Part shown: positions 4,182 to 12,551 of the stretch, piece after piece
Position numbering within the stretch: the first letter of the stretch is position 1
Layout of the letters: every line of letters starts with the position of its first letter
Assembly (NCBI RefSeq): GCF_003261635.1
Contig: NZ_QFXK01000004.1
Location: forward strand, 124,001-188,000
Length of the DNA: 64,000 bases
Reading direction: 5' to 3'
From: Kribbella monticola
GTDB lineage: Bacteria > Actinomycetota > Actinomycetes > Propionibacteriales > Kribbellaceae
Notes under the pieces: model-generated
Told to the model about the DNA's origin: nothing
The model's input: only the letters and a program-made list of their open reading frames with translations
Databases searched by the model: none
Made by a program: the position numbers and the translations under genes

Positions 4182-5015
4182 CTACGTGGTCCGCAGCCCC
4201 GCGCGGCCCGTACTACGCCCTCTTCCGAGCCCCGTCTGTGCCTTCGGCCCGGGATCGGACAGGAAATCGGCGCGGGCCTTGAAGAGGCGCTCGGACTTGA
4301 ACCCGGACTTGATCCCGGAGCCACGCGCGCGCTCCGGATCGAACTCGGATTCTGGCCCGCGCTCCGGATCGAACTCGGAGTCGGGATCCGACTTGAGCTC
4401 GGGCCGGCGCTCCGGATCGAGGTCGGGCTTGCCTGTCGCGCCGAGCTTGGGCTTGGGCTCGCGCTCAGGTCCGAACTCGGGCTCGGGACCCGGCTCGAGC
4501 AAGGGCCGGCGCTCCGGATCGAGGTCGGGCTTGCCTATCGCGCCGAGGTTGGGCGCGCGCTCCGGTTCGAACTCGGGCTCGGCATCCGGCTCGAGCAGGG
4601 GCCGGCGTTCCGGATCGAGCTCGGGCTTGCCTGTCGCGCCGAGCTTGGGTTCGAACTCGGGCTTGCCTGTCGCGCCGGGCTCGGGATCCGGTTCGAACTC
4701 GGGCTCGGGTGGGGGTTCGGGGGCTGGGTGGAGATTGGGCCAGGGGCGGGGTGGTAGGTCGGAGCGGGGTTTCAGGTTGAGCGCGGGGTCCGGGCCGGGA
4801 TCGGGGTCGAGCCACTCGACCTCGGTGGCGCCTTGATGGCCGTGGATCGCGATCACCGACTCGATGGCGTCCCAGACGGTCGTGGTCGGGTAGTCGCCGT
4901 ACCAGCGGAGCGCGACCGCCCCGTCGGTGAACTGGACGCCCTCGGCGACCGGCCCGGTACCGCTGACCCCGGAGACGTCGTGATGGCGGATCAGCCGGAA
5001 ACGACGAGAACTCAT
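4182..5015 (-). CDS. Hypothetical protein with acidic proline-rich tandem repeats
   Basis: A 277-residue protein whose ATG (5015-5013) overlaps the stop of the upstream gene as ATGA, so translation is probably coupled. Residues 1-75 form an ordered-looking domain (GVQFTDGAVALRWYGDY, then VEWLDPDPGPDP). From about residue 76 the sequence is repeats built on KPxLDPERRPLLEP followed by PEFEPERxP and LGATG; three clear copies and partial ones give a highly charged, disordered tail. At DNA level the repeats are near-identical, so copy number may vary between strains. No enzyme motif. Family not recognised. Confidence 0.65.
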   Translation of the reverse strand: MSSRRFRLIRHHDVSGVSGTGPVAEGVQFTDGAVALRWYGDYPTTTVWDAIESVIAIHGHQGATEVEWLDPDPGPDPALNLKPRSDLPPRPWPNLHPAPEPPPEPEFEPDPEPGATGKPEFEPKLGATGKPELDPERRPLLEPDAEPEFEPERAPNLGAIGKPDLDPERRPLLEPGPEPEFGPEREPKPKLGATGKPDLDPERRPELKSDPDSEFDPERGPESEFDPERARGSGIKSGFKSERLFKARADFLSDPGPKAQTGLGRGRSTGRAGLRTT

Positions 5016-5269
5016 TTCGGCGCGACCTCCCACAACCGCTCCCCCGGCAGCTTGCGCCCCGGTGACGACTCGCTCGGCAGGATCGGCTCGCTCGTCACGC
5101 GCAACCCGGCGAACCGGCGCGACATGGCGGCTGCATAGCGGTCTGCCAGCTCGGCCTCCGCCTGGTAGTCCGCGACGACGTGGTCCCCGAACCACACTCG
5201 TACGCGGCGTCGTTGGGGTGCCGTCCCGCCTATCGGAACGGGGTCGGTACTGGCATCGTCGCCGGACAT
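5012..5269 (-). CDS. Hypothetical protein, coupled to the repeat protein
   Basis: An 85-residue reading from ATG 5269, chosen because AGGG lies eight bases upstream; the frame stays open upstream to a GTG at 5413 (133 residues) but the extra part is acidic low complexity. The conserved-looking core is RRRVRVWFGDHVVADYQAEAELADRYAAAM. The stop at 5012 overlaps the start of the next gene by four bases. The pair looks like one transcription unit. Function unknown; start uncertain. Confidence 0.5.
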   Translation of the reverse strand: MSGDDASTDPVPIGGTAPQRRRVRVWFGDHVVADYQAEAELADRYAAAMSRRFAGLRVTSEPILPSESSPGRKLPGERLWEVAPK

Positions 5270-5744
5270 CAGTGCACCCTGCGCCCGGTCGGCCTGATCG
5301 GCGTCTTGCGGCCGCCTGTCGGTGTTCCCATCAGCGGCATCGAGGACCATCGGTTCACTTCGATCACTTCCACTTCCCTGTGGGGATGGGTTCACTTCAG
5401 AGACGACCGCCACCCACAGTCATGACGCAGATCCAGAACTTTTTCTTTTCCGTACGCCGATCGCCCGCTCCTCCAACGCCCGCTCGCCCTGCGCGGTAGC
5501 TCGGCTCAGGCCGGCGACCCGGGTGGATGGGACGGTGGGCGCGTGGAGCGGGAACCGGTGGGCGCGGATCGGGCAAAGGGTGGTGTGAACCCGATTCGAG
5601 CTCTGGCGTCCGTGCCCGACCTACCCACTGATGCCCCACCCGAACCCACGGCCGTCGACGTACCAGGCGAGCACGCGGACTCCGACGTACCAGCTGAACG
5701 CGCGGATGCCGACGTACCGGGTGAACGCGTGGATGCCGACGTAG
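5270..5744. other. Gap upstream of sigma-factor remnant; no confident gene
   Basis: No confident gene lies here apart from the possible N-terminal extension of the preceding gene and a small plus-strand reading frame with 9-residue repeats (5543-5761). The stretch should hold promoters for the divergent neighbours; none is clear enough to mark. Confidence 0.4.
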
Positions 5745-5761
5745 GTGTCTGCGGTTGCTGA
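5543..5761 (+). CDS. Possible small repeat peptide (72 aa)
   Basis: A GTG-started frame of 72 residues that overlaps the start of the sigma-factor remnant by 17 bases. It contains three copies of a 9-residue unit DVPxExxDx, from codon-aligned 27-bp repeats. The period being a multiple of three favours coding, but there is no good ribosome site and no recognised family. It could equally be an upstream leader or chance frame. Confidence 0.25.
   Translation: MEREPVGADRAKGGVNPIRALASVPDLPTDAPPEPTAVDVPGEHADSDVPAERADADVPGERVDADVGVCGC
5657..5737 (+). repeat. 27-bp tandem repeat, three copies plus a partial
   Basis: Units start at 5657, 5684 and 5711, each opening GACGTACC and closing GCGxGGAxxCC, followed by a partial GACGTAGG at 5738. 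It lies immediately before the GTG of the sigma-factor remnant. Confidence 0.75.
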
Positions 5762-6489
5762 TGCGGTGTTGATCGCGGGGTCTCGGGCTTCGCCGGAGTT
5801 GTTTGCGGTGGTGTTCGATCGGCATGCGGTCGCGATTCATCGGTACGTCGCGCGTCGGCTCGGCAGCAGCGAGGCCGACGATCTGCTCGGGCAGACGTTC
5901 TTGCTGGCGTTCGAGCGCAGGCATCGGTCCGACAAGACGCGGTCGGACGCATTGCCGTCGTTGTACGGGATCGCGACCAACCTGATTCACCGGCGTAGAC
6001 GTGACGAAGTACGGCAGTACCGCGCCTACGCCCGTACGCCGGCCGCTGGCGACCAGGACGGCTTCGCCAACGAGGTGGCGGACCGACTGGACACAGTACG
6101 AGCCAATCGCGTGCTGTCCGAGGTACTGGCCGGTCTGCGGTCCGCTGAGCGTGACGTGCTGCTCCTGTACGCCTGGGAAGAGCTCAGCTATCCAGAGATC
6201 GCCCAAGCGCTCGACATCCCACTGGGGACCGTACGGTCCCGCCGACCTCCGCGCCGCGCTCTACCGCGCGGCCCGGCTGATCCCCGGCGTCCACCTGGTC
6301 GACGGCATCGTCAACCTCGACGGTGCCCAGGGCCGCGCCGTAACCCGCACCGCCAACGGCCAACGCATCGACCTCATCATCAACCCCACCACCGGCCACT
6401 TCATCGGCGAACGCCACCTATCCACCCAAACCACCCCTACGCAACCAAAGGCGCCACAACCTACTGGTCCGCCGTCACCACCCACCTAA
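5745..6489 (+). pseudogene. ECF sigma factor joined out of frame to an anti-sigma-like gene tail
   Basis: From GTG 5745 the frame encodes a normal ECF sigma factor: region 2 (FDRHAVAIHRYVARRL, DDLLGQTFLLAFERR) and most of region 4 (RDVLLLYAWEELSYPEIAQALDI, GTVRSR). At about 6240, exactly where a LHRARxxL helix should follow, that frame turns into Arg/Pro-rich nonsense running to 6521. In the +1 frame a sensible sequence starts: ADLRAALYRAARLIPGV and INPTTGHFIGER, ending at 6489. That second part is the usual C-terminus of CU044_5270-family proteins, which are encoded just downstream of such sigma genes in actinobacteria. The simplest reading is one internal deletion joining two neighbouring genes and destroying both. 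Whether the truncated sigma product retains activity is unknown. Confidence 0.75.
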
Positions 6490-6546
6490 CCACCACACCC
6501 CACCCAAGCCGTAACCGATAGCTCAGCGTTGAAAGACGGCTGGGCT

Positions 6547-7011
6547 TCAGATCACCCAGGGCTTCCACTGCTCCTGGTCGTCGGCGTCCGGGGTTGTCTC
6601 TGGAGCGAGGTCGTGCGTTCCAGCTCCGGGCAGATAGGCCGCGATCAAGAACTCCAGGTTGTGCAGCAGCATTGCCGGAGCGTCCGGCCGCGCCTCGATC
6701 AGCTTGTCAAACACGAGGCGCGACTGGCGATGCAGCACTTCCTCGCCACGACTTCGCATACCGATGTCGATCCCGTAGGCATCCGTCGCCTGGACCTCGT
6801 CGGGCCCGGCGTCCGGCGATACGTACCCGTTCCGCTGAATCACCACGCTGTACCAGTCGTCGTCATTGGCCAGACGGCCGCGCAAGCCGACCTTGTCCTC
6901 ACCATCCGGCTGATCGGGGTAACGCTCGATCCCCAGCACCCGCTCCAACCAATCGGCAACTTGTCCAGGCGTCTCATCCAAGCCCAGAAAAATGCTGTCG
7001 CTGGTGGACAT
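6547..7011 (-). CDS. Putative immunity protein, second paralog
   Basis: A 154-residue acidic protein. ATG 7011 is preferred over the GTG three bases earlier because AAGGAG is then five bases away. It aligns end to end with the neighbour at 7074: N-terminal DSIFLGLDETPGQVADWL versus DNIFLATGDPVADVARWL, central RNGYVSPD versus PNGYVNAD, and the shared end KPWVI/QPWVI. The tandem placement directly after a toxin gene is the classic position of duplicated immunity genes. Separated from its paralog by 62 bases. I infer that it binds the toxin's nuclease domain, or that of a lost relative. Confidence 0.65.
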   Translation of the reverse strand: MSTSDSIFLGLDETPGQVADWLERVLGIERYPDQPDGEDKVGLRGRLANDDDWYSVVIQRNGYVSPDAGPDEVQATDAYGIDIGMRSRGEEVLHRQSRLVFDKLIEARPDAPAMLLHNLEFLIAAYLPGAGTHDLAPETTPDADDQEQWKPWVI

Positions 7012-7073
7012 CACTGCTCCTTCAGGTAGGTGACAAGTCGCCCATCACCAAGATCAATAAACCTGGAGGAGGC

Positions 7074-7544
7074 TCAGCTGATGACCCAGGGTTGCCATTT
7101 TTCGAGGTCTGGTTCGTCGAGGGATGGTGCTGGGTCGAAGTAGTGGGTTCCTTTGCCGGGTAGGTGGGCGGCCGTCAAGGTACTGAGGTTGTGACTCAGC
7201 AGGATCGGCGTGTCGGGGCGCGTCTCGACCAGCTCGTCAAAGACCAGACGCGCCTCCATCGTCTGGAGCTCCTCGTCCGTCTGCTCTGCGTACCAGACGT
7301 CGATGTCGATCGGGTAGCGGTCGATCGCCTGGGCCTCCTCGTCAGGGTCGGCGTTCACGTAACCATTGGGCCGGACAGTCAGCACCACCGACCCGTCGGC
7401 GCTCCGGGCAGGACCTCGCAGGCGTATCAACCGGTTGTCAGGCTCCTCCTCGACCGGCGTCATTTGCAGCGTCTCCGCCAACCATCGCGCCACGTCCGCC
7501 ACCGGGTCACCGGTAGCAAGAAAGATGTTGTCGTCGTCGGACAT
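7074..7544 (-). CDS. Putative immunity protein, first paralog
   Basis: A 156-residue acidic protein starting one base inside the toxin stop codon (TGATG), with GAAGGAGA as ribosome site inside the toxin end. Such tight coupling ensures that immunity is made with the toxin. The sequence has no enzyme motif; conserved blocks shared with the next gene include RLVFDELVETRPDTP and the C-terminal WQPWVI. Strong acidity fits binding to a basic nuclease domain. Family name not recognised; the role rests on position, charge and duplication. Confidence 0.7.
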   Translation of the reverse strand: MSDDDNIFLATGDPVADVARWLAETLQMTPVEEEPDNRLIRLRGPARSADGSVVLTVRPNGYVNADPDEEAQAIDRYPIDIDVWYAEQTDEELQTMEARLVFDELVETRPDTPILLSHNLSTLTAAHLPGKGTHYFDPAPSLDEPDLEKWQPWVIS

Positions 7545-8833
7545 CAGTTCTCCTTCGTCAACGTGACCAGACGGCCGTCACCGAGGATGACATGTGCCGC
7601 AGCCGAGATGAACGCGCCTGGCTCACCGCAAACCATCCGGAATGCGCGCTGTGCCATGTCCTCGGCCAACCCGACCTTCCGGCCGTCGATGAGCACCTCT
7701 CCCGAGGCCCCGGCCTGGCCACTGCCCTTCCGCATGTTCCGCTTCACCGCCGACAGGGTTGCAACATCGAGTGTCTTGAATTCCATGATCCTGCCGGGGT
7801 CGCTCTCATTCTTGCGAACCATGGCATCCGGGTTCTTCTGGTGCTTCCTGCTGTGGTCTTCGATCCTCGCGTCGATTCGCCAGCCCTCTTTCACCAGCCG
7901 CGACGCGATCTCGATCTCCTTCGGTTTGAAAGTGTTCTGTGGATTGTGAACACCGGGGGCGAAATCGACTCCTAGAGCTCCACGTTGCGTCGCCGGGTCG
8001 AAGTTGGGGAGATCGACGTCGATGGCTGCGAATTCGATCGTGTCTGGTGTTGTGGGAGTTGCGGAGGCCGGCGTTGGGAGTTCGATGTTGATGACTGGTG
8101 GTGGGGGTTGGGTGGGGAGGTCGGGGTAGGTGAAGGTGGCGGTTACGTGGGTGGGGGTGATGGTGATGGTGGCGGTTTGCCAGGTGTGGTTGGCGTTGGC
8201 GGACATTGAGTGGAGGAGGTCGGTGGCGGATTCGTTGAGGTCTACGGCGATTTCGTAGGTGAGGTCCTCGGGAGGGTCCTGGTCCTCGACGACGATTGCG
8301 CGGCCGTCGGGGGTGACCATGAGTTCCACCTCGAGTTCTTCGAAGTCTTCGTGGTCTTCTTCGTCTTTTTGTTGTTTCTTGCGGAGTTTCTCGAGTGCTT
8401 TGCGGGCGACCTTGATGAGGGGTGGCTCGGGGGCTTCGGGTGCATCCGAGGCCGGTTTGAAAGGGGCGGAGAGGCGTTTGGTGCGGCCGAAGAGGTCGCG
8501 TTCGGCGACATCCCCGGTTCCGCCGGTCGTCCTGTCGCGGTCCGCGGAGCTCGCATCGGGGCGTGTGCCGGAACCGCCGCCCACAAGACGTTGAGCCCAA
8601 GCCTTGGCTTTCGGGGGCGCCATCGACAAGTAGTGGGCGGCTTCCTCGCAAGCTCGGGCGGCCGCGTCGAGTTGTTGGGCAGCCACGGTCGCCCGGCCTT
8701 GCGAAGCGGCGATGGCGAGCGCGGCGTTCTCCCGGCAGCGTTCCGCCGTACGGTGCAGGTGGAGGACCACCTGCGGTACCTCGTCGAGGCACTCGACCAG
8801 ACCTTGGGCGACTCGCTGCAGGTCGGACGGCAT
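7544..8833 (-). CDS. Polymorphic toxin with CdiA-CT-like nuclease C-terminus
   Basis: A 429-residue modular protein. Residues 1-85 are helical (CRENAALAIAASQGR region), resembling the N-terminal modules of actinobacterial secreted toxins. Residues 90-180 are disordered with an Asp/Glu/Lys-rich stretch (KKQQKDEEDHEDFEELE). A beta-rich part with PTTP linkers follows. From about residue 300 the sequence (EIEIASRLVKEGWRIDAR, then PDAMVRK, MEFKT, GSGQAG) matches the PD-(D/E)xK-like layout of CdiA C-terminal tRNase domains: acidic residue, E-x-K, then a basic helix and glutamine. It follows a WXG100-like gene by seven bases and is followed by two immunity-like genes. The target is probably tRNA or other nucleic acid (inference). 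Confidence 0.72.
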   Translation of the reverse strand: MPSDLQRVAQGLVECLDEVPQVVLHLHRTAERCRENAALAIAASQGRATVAAQQLDAAARACEEAAHYLSMAPPKAKAWAQRLVGGGSGTRPDASSADRDRTTGGTGDVAERDLFGRTKRLSAPFKPASDAPEAPEPPLIKVARKALEKLRKKQQKDEEDHEDFEELEVELMVTPDGRAIVVEDQDPPEDLTYEIAVDLNESATDLLHSMSANANHTWQTATITITPTHVTATFTYPDLPTQPPPPVINIELPTPASATPTTPDTIEFAAIDVDLPNFDPATQRGALGVDFAPGVHNPQNTFKPKEIEIASRLVKEGWRIDARIEDHSRKHQKNPDAMVRKNESDPGRIMEFKTLDVATLSAVKRNMRKGSGQAGASGEVLIDGRKVGLAEDMAQRAFRMVCGEPGAFISAAAHVILGDGRLVTLTKEN

Positions 8834-9117: not shown

Positions 9118-9798
9118 CTAGGGATTGCGCTTCTTCGGCAACACGATCGCCGTTCCGGAGATGATCACCGGTACGGCGATCGCGATCCACCACGGCAGTC
9201 CGGCCGCCATCGCGACGACGACCAGCACGGCACCGCCCCAGCCCCACCAGCGCGCGCCGGGCAGGCGCGGCAGGCCTAGTACGCGGGATGCGGCCAGCAT
9301 GGTGACGGCCTCGATCGCTGCGCCTTCCAGTCCGGCCAGGAAGGATCCGGAGATCACCCAGATCAGTACGAAGCCGACGACGACCAGTGCGGCGCTGATA
9401 GTACGGCGCTTGCGGCGCTCCTGCTCTGCCCGGGCCTTCGCGCGCACCTCCTCCAGCTTGTCCACTGTGTCCGCCAGCTGCTTGGTGAGCTTCGCCGCGG
9501 CCGCCTCGATGTCGGTGAGTCCCCTGATCGCAGGCATCGGCACGGTCGTCCTCTTGCCGTCCGCAGGCAACCCAGCGCGCTGCAGCGAAGCAGCGGCCTT
9601 CTCTGCAAGTGCGTTGAGTCGCAGCTCGAGCTTCCGCCCGCGCTCGGCCATCGCGTCGGCCTCGGCCATCGCTGTGGCCTCTGCCTTGGACCTGTTCGCA
9701 GTCAGCCTGTCCTGCGCCTGCTGCGCGTCAGCACGCGCTCCAGCGACCTGTCGCACCGCACGGGCGTACTCGGACCACACCTGCTCTTCGGTCTTCAT
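9118..9798 (-). CDS. Membrane protein with N-terminal coiled coil
   Basis: A 226-residue protein whose ATG (9798-9796) overlaps the stop of the ATPase gene as ATGA. Residues 1-130 are Ala/Glu/Lys/Arg-rich heptads (QVAGARADAQQAQDRL, AAAKLTKQLADTVDKLEEV), a clear coiled coil. A basic ERRKRR motif precedes hydrophobic spans around residues 137-155, 160-175 and 185-215, ending in a basic KKRNP tail. This gives a cytoplasmic coiled coil anchored by two to four spans. Coupled to the ATPase and followed by the WXG100-like gene, it is a plausible membrane platform for toxin export. No known Ecc component is evident. Confidence 0.7.
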   Translation of the reverse strand: MKTEEQVWSEYARAVRQVAGARADAQQAQDRLTANRSKAEATAMAEADAMAERGRKLELRLNALAEKAAASLQRAGLPADGKRTTVPMPAIRGLTDIEAAAAKLTKQLADTVDKLEEVRAKARAEQERRKRRTISAALVVVGFVLIWVISGSFLAGLEGAAIEAVTMLAASRVLGLPRLPGARWWGWGGAVLVVVAMAAGLPWWIAIAVPVIISGTAIVLPKKRNP

Positions 9799-12551
9799 CG
9801 GCGCACCAGCTCTACATAGCGGTCGACCTCGTCCACGCGCAGCGGCGCGAACGGTACGACGACCTGCGCCTCCGGGTGCAGCCCGTCCCACAACAGCCCG
9901 CGGTGCGGCTCCGACGCCCACCGCACGAGCGGCCCACACACTGCGCGTACGCCGTCCTGCGGATGCCGCAGGAACAAGTGGGTCGCAACATTGGCCCGCC
10001 CGTACCCCAGTTGCTCGGTGCAGACATGCAGACGGTTCCACCAGCCGAACGTCACCAGCCCCTGGGTCGGCCCGTCCCGCACGATGTCCTGCAACGCGTT
10101 CGCCGGACTCTCGAAGTACCCGTCGGCGTGGGTCTGCATCTTCGGTACGCCGTGGAAGCCGAACCCGAGCAGGTAGGTCTCCCCACCGATCTGCCCGTCG
10201 CGCACAGCGTTCCGCAGCGAGAACAACCGCGGGGCGATGTCCTCGTGCTTGTCGACGGTCTCGACCTCCGACCCGAGCTGTCGCAGCGCCTGAACCAACG
10301 CACCCTTGCCCTCGGCAACAGCCGGGGACGAGTCGGTCCCGTCGACGAAGATGAACCGCGGCGGTACTACGGCTGCCGCGGCCGCGGACACCGCCAGCCC
10401 CGACAACACCCCGAGCGCATCGGCCGGGCCGTCACCCAGCACCAGTACGCCGGCGCCCGGCTCAGGCCGCACCTCGACGGCCACCGGAGCTTCGGTCACC
10501 GCGATCGGCAACCCCGTCCAGGGCCGGCCGAGTTCGGGCTTCACCGAGGCGGCGGTGTCGGCCAACCGGGCCGGCTCCGCGAGATGGAAGACGCGCGGCG
10601 GATGCGTAGTACCGGATCTGAGCCACAGTTCGCGGCGCAGGTCGTCGAGCACGGCCTTGTCGGCGAAGCTGACCAGCACGTGCTGGTTGTCGTCTGGCGA
10701 GCCGAAGTTCGCGTTCAGCACGGCCTCGCCGCGGAACTGCAGTTCGGCCGCCGCCGTGTTCCCCGTCCGCAGGATCGCCTGCGAGTCGGCCGGAGTGGTC
10801 TTCAAGGCAATCCGGTACGGCACCTGCCCGAAGATCGAGTCGCGTCGCGTCGACAACCGCTTGACCCCCTCGATCGTCTGGGTCGCGAGCACCACGTGTA
10901 CGCCGTACGCGCGGCCGAGGCGAACCAGTCGCTCGAGCAGTCGCGCGGCCTCGTCGGCCAGTTCGTCGTCGTCTTCGAGCAGCACCTGGAACTCGTCCAG
11001 TACGGCGAGGATGCGCGGCGGGCGATCCGGTCCCGCAGGCAATTCGGCGATGTCCGCGACGTTGCCGTGCGACTTGAAGATCTCGCTGCGTCGGGCGAGC
11101 TCGTCGGAGAGGTGCCGCAGTACGGCCAGCCCGAACGCCCGGTCGCTGTGGATGCCGAGCACGCGCACGTGCGGAAGCCAGTGCTCCCGCTCACCGGCCG
11201 GCCCGAGGGCGGAGAACTCCACGCCGTGCTTGAAGTCGAGCAGGTACATCTCCAGATCCACCGGCGCATAACGCGCGGCGAGACCGTGGATCAGCACGAG
11301 CAACAGATTCGACTTGCCCTGTCCGACCGCTCCCCCGACCAGTACGTGTGGCAATGCCGGGTTACCGCTGCGCAACCGCACGAGGGCCGGGGTGCGGTCG
11401 TCGTACCCGATGACGGTACTGAGCTCGTCGCTGACCGGCTGCCACCAGGTCGAGCGATCCGGCAGCGTCCGGTTGAACTCGATCGTCGGCAGCACCGCGA
11501 TCTCAGCCAGTTCCGCGATCACGTCACAGATGCCTGCGGCAACATTCGCGTCGAACGGTGGATCGAGCTTGGCCGGAACGTTCTGCAGCTGCGAGATCTC
11601 GACCCGGTTGCCGGTGATGGCCACCGGGTCGAGCAGGTCGAGCAGTTGCCGCGGATCGACCTCGTGCTCGCCCGTCGACGCAGGGTCGTGATGGACCAGG
11701 AAGCAGATGCCCCGATCCGCCCCGGTGGCCGCCAATCGGACCAGATCGCGCTGCGCCAGGGAATCGATGCCGGAGGGGTAGTCGAAAAGGACGATCAGCC
11801 GGTACGGATCGGTGACCCGACCGGTCTCGCGGATCAGTTCCTCGAACCGTTTGTGCCCCAGCTGCGCCTGCCTGCTGGCCCGCAGCGACGACACGTCGAC
11901 GAGTCCGGACAGCACGGTATGCAGCTGCTCCGCGGTATGTGTTGCCCGCGGCACCAATTGCGGGTACTTCGTGGTCAGGTGCCCGAGCAGCCCCATCATC
12001 CCGGTCAGTCGCGGATCGAACGCGTCGATCCGCAGCCGGAACGGTTCGGCCGCCGCGATCAGCCGCAGCGCCACACTCTGCAGGAGCTGCCGGGCGGCCT
12101 CGTTGCGGTCGGCCGTCACCTTCCAGCCGTTCGTCCGCAGCAGCGGCGCGACCACCGGCGTACCGGCTTCGAGTTGACCTATCCGCACGTACGACGGTGT
12201 GCCCGCGCCGACCAGTTGCCTCGACCTCCAGCGGGCGTCGTTGGGCGGGATCGAGGCCAGCCCTGGCGCCAGGCGGTCCGCCAGCAGGCGAGCCGCCGGC
12301 TCGGCCGTCGCCAGTGCTTCCGCGGTCGCGGCCTCTACCAGGCCACGCGATTCGCGCCGCGCCAGCACGGTCTGCTCCTGCAACTGCCGGTGCAGCCGCA
12401 CGGCACGCTGGTGCTCCCCATGGGTAAGCCGACGCGCGGTCTCGAGGAGCTCCCCGAGCGCGAACTGCAGTCCCCGGACCCGTGCCTCCAGAACTTCCGG
12501 AGAAACCGGTCCGGGCATGCTTTCCCCGTCAGGCTTCTCCGTCACGAGCAC
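9795..12551 (-). CDS. FtsK/SpoIIIE-type ATPase of the toxin cassette
   Basis: A 918-residue protein without transmembrane segments. Residues 1-350 form an N-terminal region with a long helical start. The FtsK-type ATPase domain has Walker A GGAVGQGKSN (Lys413) and Walker B ILAVLDEF (Asp519-Glu520), followed by VVLATQTIEGVKR, the usual sensor strand. After about residue 690 comes a second P-loop-like domain in which the Walker A position reads VLGDGPADALG, without Lys-Thr, so it is probably degenerate, as in the later domains of EccC. It is the first gene of the cassette. I infer that it powers export of the WXG100-like protein and toxin. An alternative role in DNA translocation is less likely given the neighbours. 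Confidence 0.85.
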   Translation of the reverse strand: MLVTEKPDGESMPGPVSPEVLEARVRGLQFALGELLETARRLTHGEHQRAVRLHRQLQEQTVLARRESRGLVEAATAEALATAEPAARLLADRLAPGLASIPPNDARWRSRQLVGAGTPSYVRIGQLEAGTPVVAPLLRTNGWKVTADRNEAARQLLQSVALRLIAAAEPFRLRIDAFDPRLTGMMGLLGHLTTKYPQLVPRATHTAEQLHTVLSGLVDVSSLRASRQAQLGHKRFEELIRETGRVTDPYRLIVLFDYPSGIDSLAQRDLVRLAATGADRGICFLVHHDPASTGEHEVDPRQLLDLLDPVAITGNRVEISQLQNVPAKLDPPFDANVAAGICDVIAELAEIAVLPTIEFNRTLPDRSTWWQPVSDELSTVIGYDDRTPALVRLRSGNPALPHVLVGGAVGQGKSNLLLVLIHGLAARYAPVDLEMYLLDFKHGVEFSALGPAGEREHWLPHVRVLGIHSDRAFGLAVLRHLSDELARRSEIFKSHGNVADIAELPAGPDRPPRILAVLDEFQVLLEDDDELADEAARLLERLVRLGRAYGVHVVLATQTIEGVKRLSTRRDSIFGQVPYRIALKTTPADSQAILRTGNTAAAELQFRGEAVLNANFGSPDDNQHVLVSFADKAVLDDLRRELWLRSGTTHPPRVFHLAEPARLADTAASVKPELGRPWTGLPIAVTEAPVAVEVRPEPGAGVLVLGDGPADALGVLSGLAVSAAAAAVVPPRFIFVDGTDSSPAVAEGKGALVQALRQLGSEVETVDKHEDIAPRLFSLRNAVRDGQIGGETYLLGFGFHGVPKMQTHADGYFESPANALQDIVRDGPTQGLVTFGWWNRLHVCTEQLGYGRANVATHLFLRHPQDGVRAVCGPLVRWASEPHRGLLWDGLHPEAQVVVPFAPLRVDEVDRYVELVRR

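Follow-up and report, generated by a model that had tools for sequence, protein, structure and literature searches.

In Salmonella, young pseudogenes have been shown to be deleted rapidly (Kuo and Ochman, 2010; PMC2916853), and some C-terminal extensions of ECF sigma factors are thought to have originated as fused anti-sigma factors (PMC8999054). A literature search on ECF sigma factor pseudogenes in Kribbella returned nothing specific, and no paper naming CU044_5270 was found. The locus described here lies in a stretch of 64,000 nucleotides (the window; C79:124001-188000) from the 8.03 Mb genome of the soil actinobacterium Kribbella monticola (G000), which is assembled in 90 contigs. It carries parts of an ECF sigma factor gene and of a CU044_5270-family gene and, with a probability of about 95%, represents a degraded pair of these two genes fused by a deletion. 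The features of the locus, in window coordinates, are as follows:

5551 to 5576, forward strand: promoter-like block GGGAACCG-N12-CGGGCA (GGGAACC...CGGGCA), retained in the remnant and recognised by alignment upstream of the sigma gene
5585 to 5761, forward strand: N-terminal linker with the GTG at which the sigma gene probably began, from alignment to the starts of relatives and direct reading
5656 to 5743, forward strand: 27-bp tandem repeat of 3.3 copies within the N-terminal linker (Tandem Repeats Finder)
5745 to 6239, forward strand: ECF sigma core remnant with region 2 and a truncated region 4 (Pfam and NCBIfam matches)
6240 to 6243, forward strand: deletion joint with ~0.86 kb missing and a 3-nt overlap GCC (6241-6243), from comparison with 14 intact loci
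6241 to 6489, forward strand: CU044_5270-family C-terminal remnant in the next frame, with its stop at 6487-6489 (NF038083 match and relatives' profile)

The ORF at 5745-6521 (+) is 258 codons long, and a Pfam/NCBIfam profile search matched its N-terminal part to sigma-70 region 2 (28.8 bits) and to region 4 (PF08281 positions 4-46 of 54, 42.7 bits). The sigma family matches stop at residues 162-175, which is the break, and region 4 can no longer be recognised past residue 166, within GTVRSR (~6240), so that the earlier description of a sigma frame that is normal up to GTVRSR and then broken holds. Region 2 is present in this ORF, PF08281 is partial and the last ~21 residues of the homologues are absent, which is not the structure of an intact ECF sigma factor. 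The overlapping forward frame, which reads GCC at 6241, matches positions 223-284 of 284 of NF038083 (CU044_5270_fam) with 43.8 bits (E=2.7e-11, window ~6232-6411), below the curated cut-off of 100 bits along the 284 positions that defines intact membership. A profile built from 14 Kribbella relatives places window 6238-6453 at its positions 262-333 of 361 with 85 bits (E 7e-28, three-frame search), and the next frame does open with a CU044_5270-type C-terminus, as had been proposed from the sequence alone. The fusion of two genes at these coordinates is confirmed far beyond chance.

The intact arrangement was sought by a DNA search of 38 Kribbella genomes (37 besides the own genome) and a scan of GTDB genomes. 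A sigma gene followed by a complete CU044_5270-type gene is found in 14 of the 37 other Kribbella genomes, with the sigma stop overlapping the partner start by 4-8 bp in every one of these pairs, and all 14 have an additional 808-885 bp between the points equivalent to window positions 6239 and 6241. In K. catacumbae (G007) and in G030 the pair is intact between the same neighbours as the remnant, in addition to 12 further intact pairs in the genus. Measured against these two same-site loci, the missing length is 862 bp (G007) and 865 bp (G030), and the lost piece corresponds to ~21 C-terminal amino acids of the sigma factor and ~264 N-terminal amino acids of the partner, including an apparent membrane helix. 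On NF038083 the intact partner of G007 reaches 124.3 bits, above the cut-off, and its full protein matched only the remnant when searched against the K. monticola genome; the missing piece has therefore not been relocated elsewhere, and a translocation of the missing part was rejected. A second, more distant CU044_5270-family gene, also above the cut-off, lies in this genome at C67:133292-134278 beside another sigma gene. The comparison with the intact locus that the sequence-only reading had called for has thus given intact pairs in 14 congeners, two of them at the same site, and a missing length of ~0.86 kb.

An assembly or sequencing error, by which both genes would be intact in the organism and skipped or broken by the assembly, might be entertained for a draft genome of 90 contigs, but the ~0.86 kb would then be missing inside a contig and not at a contig end, and no other part of the genome holds the missing partner segment. 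The missing length cannot come from a base error alone, and independent remnants at the same site in neighbouring species as well as the excess substitutions in the remnant (both described below) also speak against such an error, which is very unlikely as the whole explanation.

At the joint, the sigma side reads TCC CGC CT in most relatives and the partner side GCC GA in several, and the window reads TCC CGC CGA CCT, in which the three bases GCC (6241-6243) are common to both sides. The genome encodes two Ku homologues, and the 3-nt overlap would fit illegitimate end-joining. In the proposed course of events, the starting point would be an intact pair in which the sigma stop overlaps the start of a partner with one apparent membrane helix, a presumed regulator of the sigma factor. 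One deletion would have taken the last ~21 sigma codons together with the first ~264 partner codons, cutting off the second half of the DNA-recognition helix of the sigma factor, and illegitimate end-joining in the presence of Ku proteins may have made the joint, leaving the remaining parts of both genes out of frame with each other. Two further frame breaks would probably have arisen before or after the main deletion, and the predicted product is a partnerless sigma factor whose region 4.2 is broken and whose Arg/Pro-rich tail is meaningless, from which a loss of function would be expected. The single deletion by which the break was first explained accordingly stands for the ~0.86 kb across both genes, but does not account for two more frame lesions that are likely.

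The first of these additional lesions concerns the start of the sigma gene. The conserved ATG/GTG start of the relatives aligns with GTG 5585 of the window and not with 5745, which is just the earliest start codon available downstream of a stop in the sigma core frame. Translation from GTG 5585 would stop at TGA 5759-5761 and is not in the frame of the sigma core; in the relatives a single open frame runs from the start through the core, and a frame break between GTG 5585 and the sigma core is a probable second lesion. Similarly, the extreme C-terminus of the partner is found in a different frame (6.3 bits vs. -5.4 in the partner's own frame, a profile score equalled in 15 of 2000 shuffles), which suggests that the partner tail from ~6440 is probably frame-shifted again as a third lesion. 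The two extra frame breaks are likely, although less certain than the main deletion, and argue against a functional fusion as well as against a single base error.

Upstream, the promoter-like block, with the start codon closely after it, was aligned in the 14 relatives and is conserved in most of them. The exact GGGAACCG-N12-CGGGCA pattern has one occurrence each in the K. monticola genome, G007 and G030, which suggests that the promoter may be self-regulated and that few other targets exist. An ORF that stays open for 258 codons behind a retained promoter-like block might encode a functional fused protein, either a sigma factor that has gained an extension at its C-terminus, of which true examples exist among ECF sigma factors (PMC8999054), or a product that reaches the partner tail via programmed frameshifting. 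However, the sigma-frame tail past residue 175 matches no Pfam or NCBIfam family, hence has no recognisable C-terminal domain such as a regulatory extension would carry, the recognition helix is cut, the constraint on the gene looks relaxed and the partner tail has probably been shifted out of frame once more. Homologues sharing the fused frame, which the sequence-only reading had set against decay, were found neither among 80 GTDB loci nor among the 14 congeners. A functional fusion is very unlikely, and a functional extension was rejected with no domain in frame and no fused homologue. It is a far-fetched idea that the retained promoter, possibly self-regulated, might still drive the fused ORF and give a truncated sigma factor that acts as a decoy, binding RNA polymerase but recognising no promoters.

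The degraded pair also differs from its relatives in the tempo of its evolution. At alignment columns that are otherwise invariant, the sigma remnant carries 9 private amino acid changes, compared with 0-4 in any one relative, and in each of the two unrooted trees (sigma and partner) the remnant has the longest end branch (0.59 vs. a median of 0.09), a pattern of relaxed constraint in a remnant that evolves fast. In a codon-position comparison between pairs, third codon positions still account for the largest number of differences in the sigma remnant, and since the sigma core is in addition still open for 165 codons, the decay would be recent or partial. In a rooted tree with distant outgroups the remnant is basal to all other Kribbella copies; because it is a long branch, the tree was repeated with the outgroups left out, and long-branch attraction is likely to lie behind the basal placement. 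Grouping of the remnant with G007 and G030 alone was rejected (p 0.027), and a position within the wider clade of G007, G030, G027 and G028 was not (p 0.20).

The basal placement and the rejection of the narrow grouping would fit a replacement of the pair by a divergent copy via recombination before it decayed, in which case it would not be strictly orthologous to the pair of G007 and G030. The remnant nevertheless lies at the same site between the same neighbours, its sigma identity to G007 (73%; 68% to G030) is similar to that of the adjacent gene at 5012-5413 (68%), and the fast evolution of a decaying gene yields the same placement in the tree. Such a replacement is unlikely, although less so than an assembly error or a functional fusion, and strict orthology to the G007/G030 pair rests mainly on synteny. 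In both cases, what is present today is a remnant fused by deletion.

The flanking genes are collinear with those of G007, G030, G017, G037 and others. On one side lies an ATPase (9795-12551, -) with an FtsK/SpoIIIE domain, which resembles EccC of type VII secretion without reaching the curated cut-offs of EccCa, EccCb or EssC; it is present in all 38 Kribbella genomes, with an identity of 99% in G037 and 96% in G017. Profile searches gave no convincing family match for the neighbouring proteins other than this ATPase and an epimerase. The genes at 6547-7014 and 7074-7544 (-) encode two paralogous proteins of ~155 amino acids, of which relatives have zero to three copies, and adjoin a gene (7544-8833) for a product of 429 amino acids, whose N-terminus is conserved and whose C-terminal half is variable between genomes. 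The genes at 6547-8833 look like a swapping effector/immunity-type cassette. Upstream of the sigma remnant, the minus-strand ORF 4182-5195 contains tandem repeats (4354-4649; 96/48/24-bp periods) that encode a Pro/Glu-rich repeat (..DPERRPLLEPGPEPEFGPE..), and the identity of its protein to the nearest relative, G037, drops to 60-64% with the repeat part included.

Because the two ~155-residue paralogues vary between genomes, as does the C-terminal half of the 429-residue product, the site belongs to a variable cluster beside the EccC-like ATPase. It is not the ordinary chromosome region that had been assumed at first, and the pair is lost or shortened in G017, G035 and G037. In G017, the promoter-like block and start codon are joined directly to sigma residues 51-94 (44 amino acids), followed by a stop, and in G035 a degraded promoter-like block precedes the sigma fragment, which gives way to unrelated sequence and then a stop. 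These two remnants are located as follows:

~6490 to 6680 of the reverse complement, locus L101 of G017: third sigma remnant, promoter-like block with residues 51-94
9131 to 9330, locus L111 of G035: sigma remnant, residues 6-30 (25 amino acids) of the N-terminal core

No trace of the pair was detected at the site in the closest relative, G037, or at the other syntenic sites tested, and in G027, G028, G006, G015 and G020 an intact pair lies elsewhere and the equivalent site is empty. Since the breakpoints differ among the window, G017 and G035, the losses look independent, and the site is a loss hotspot for the sigma/partner pair. Across relatives, this one chromosomal site holds the pair intact, fused into a remnant, reduced to short fragments or not at all.

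The call of a decay event is borne out by the deletion-fused pair with its excess substitutions, by the intact congeners and by the remnants in relatives. The pseudogene is real and of a known kind, an ordinary gene decay caught part-way, and the 258-aa ORF should not be labelled a working sigma factor in annotation. It gives a well-resolved snapshot of the loss of an accessory sigma factor and its partner and a small example of repeated loss, of low general interest and without changing general understanding. Compared with the intact ECF sigma and CU044_5270 pair of K. catacumbae and G030, the remnant shares the gene order, the chromosomal site and the promoter-like block, but has lost ~0.86 kb spanning the two genes, and its reading frame is broken. 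As in the bacterial pseudogenes that are removed by deletion (PMC2916853), disrupted genes are seen en route to removal, with G037 lacking any trace of the pair, whereas the main lesion here fuses two adjacent genes. In the ECF sigma factors with a C-terminal extension (PMC8999054), a single ORF likewise continues past the sigma factor into additional C-terminal sequence, but in K. monticola this sequence is read out of frame, without a recognisable domain, and region 4.2 is cut short.
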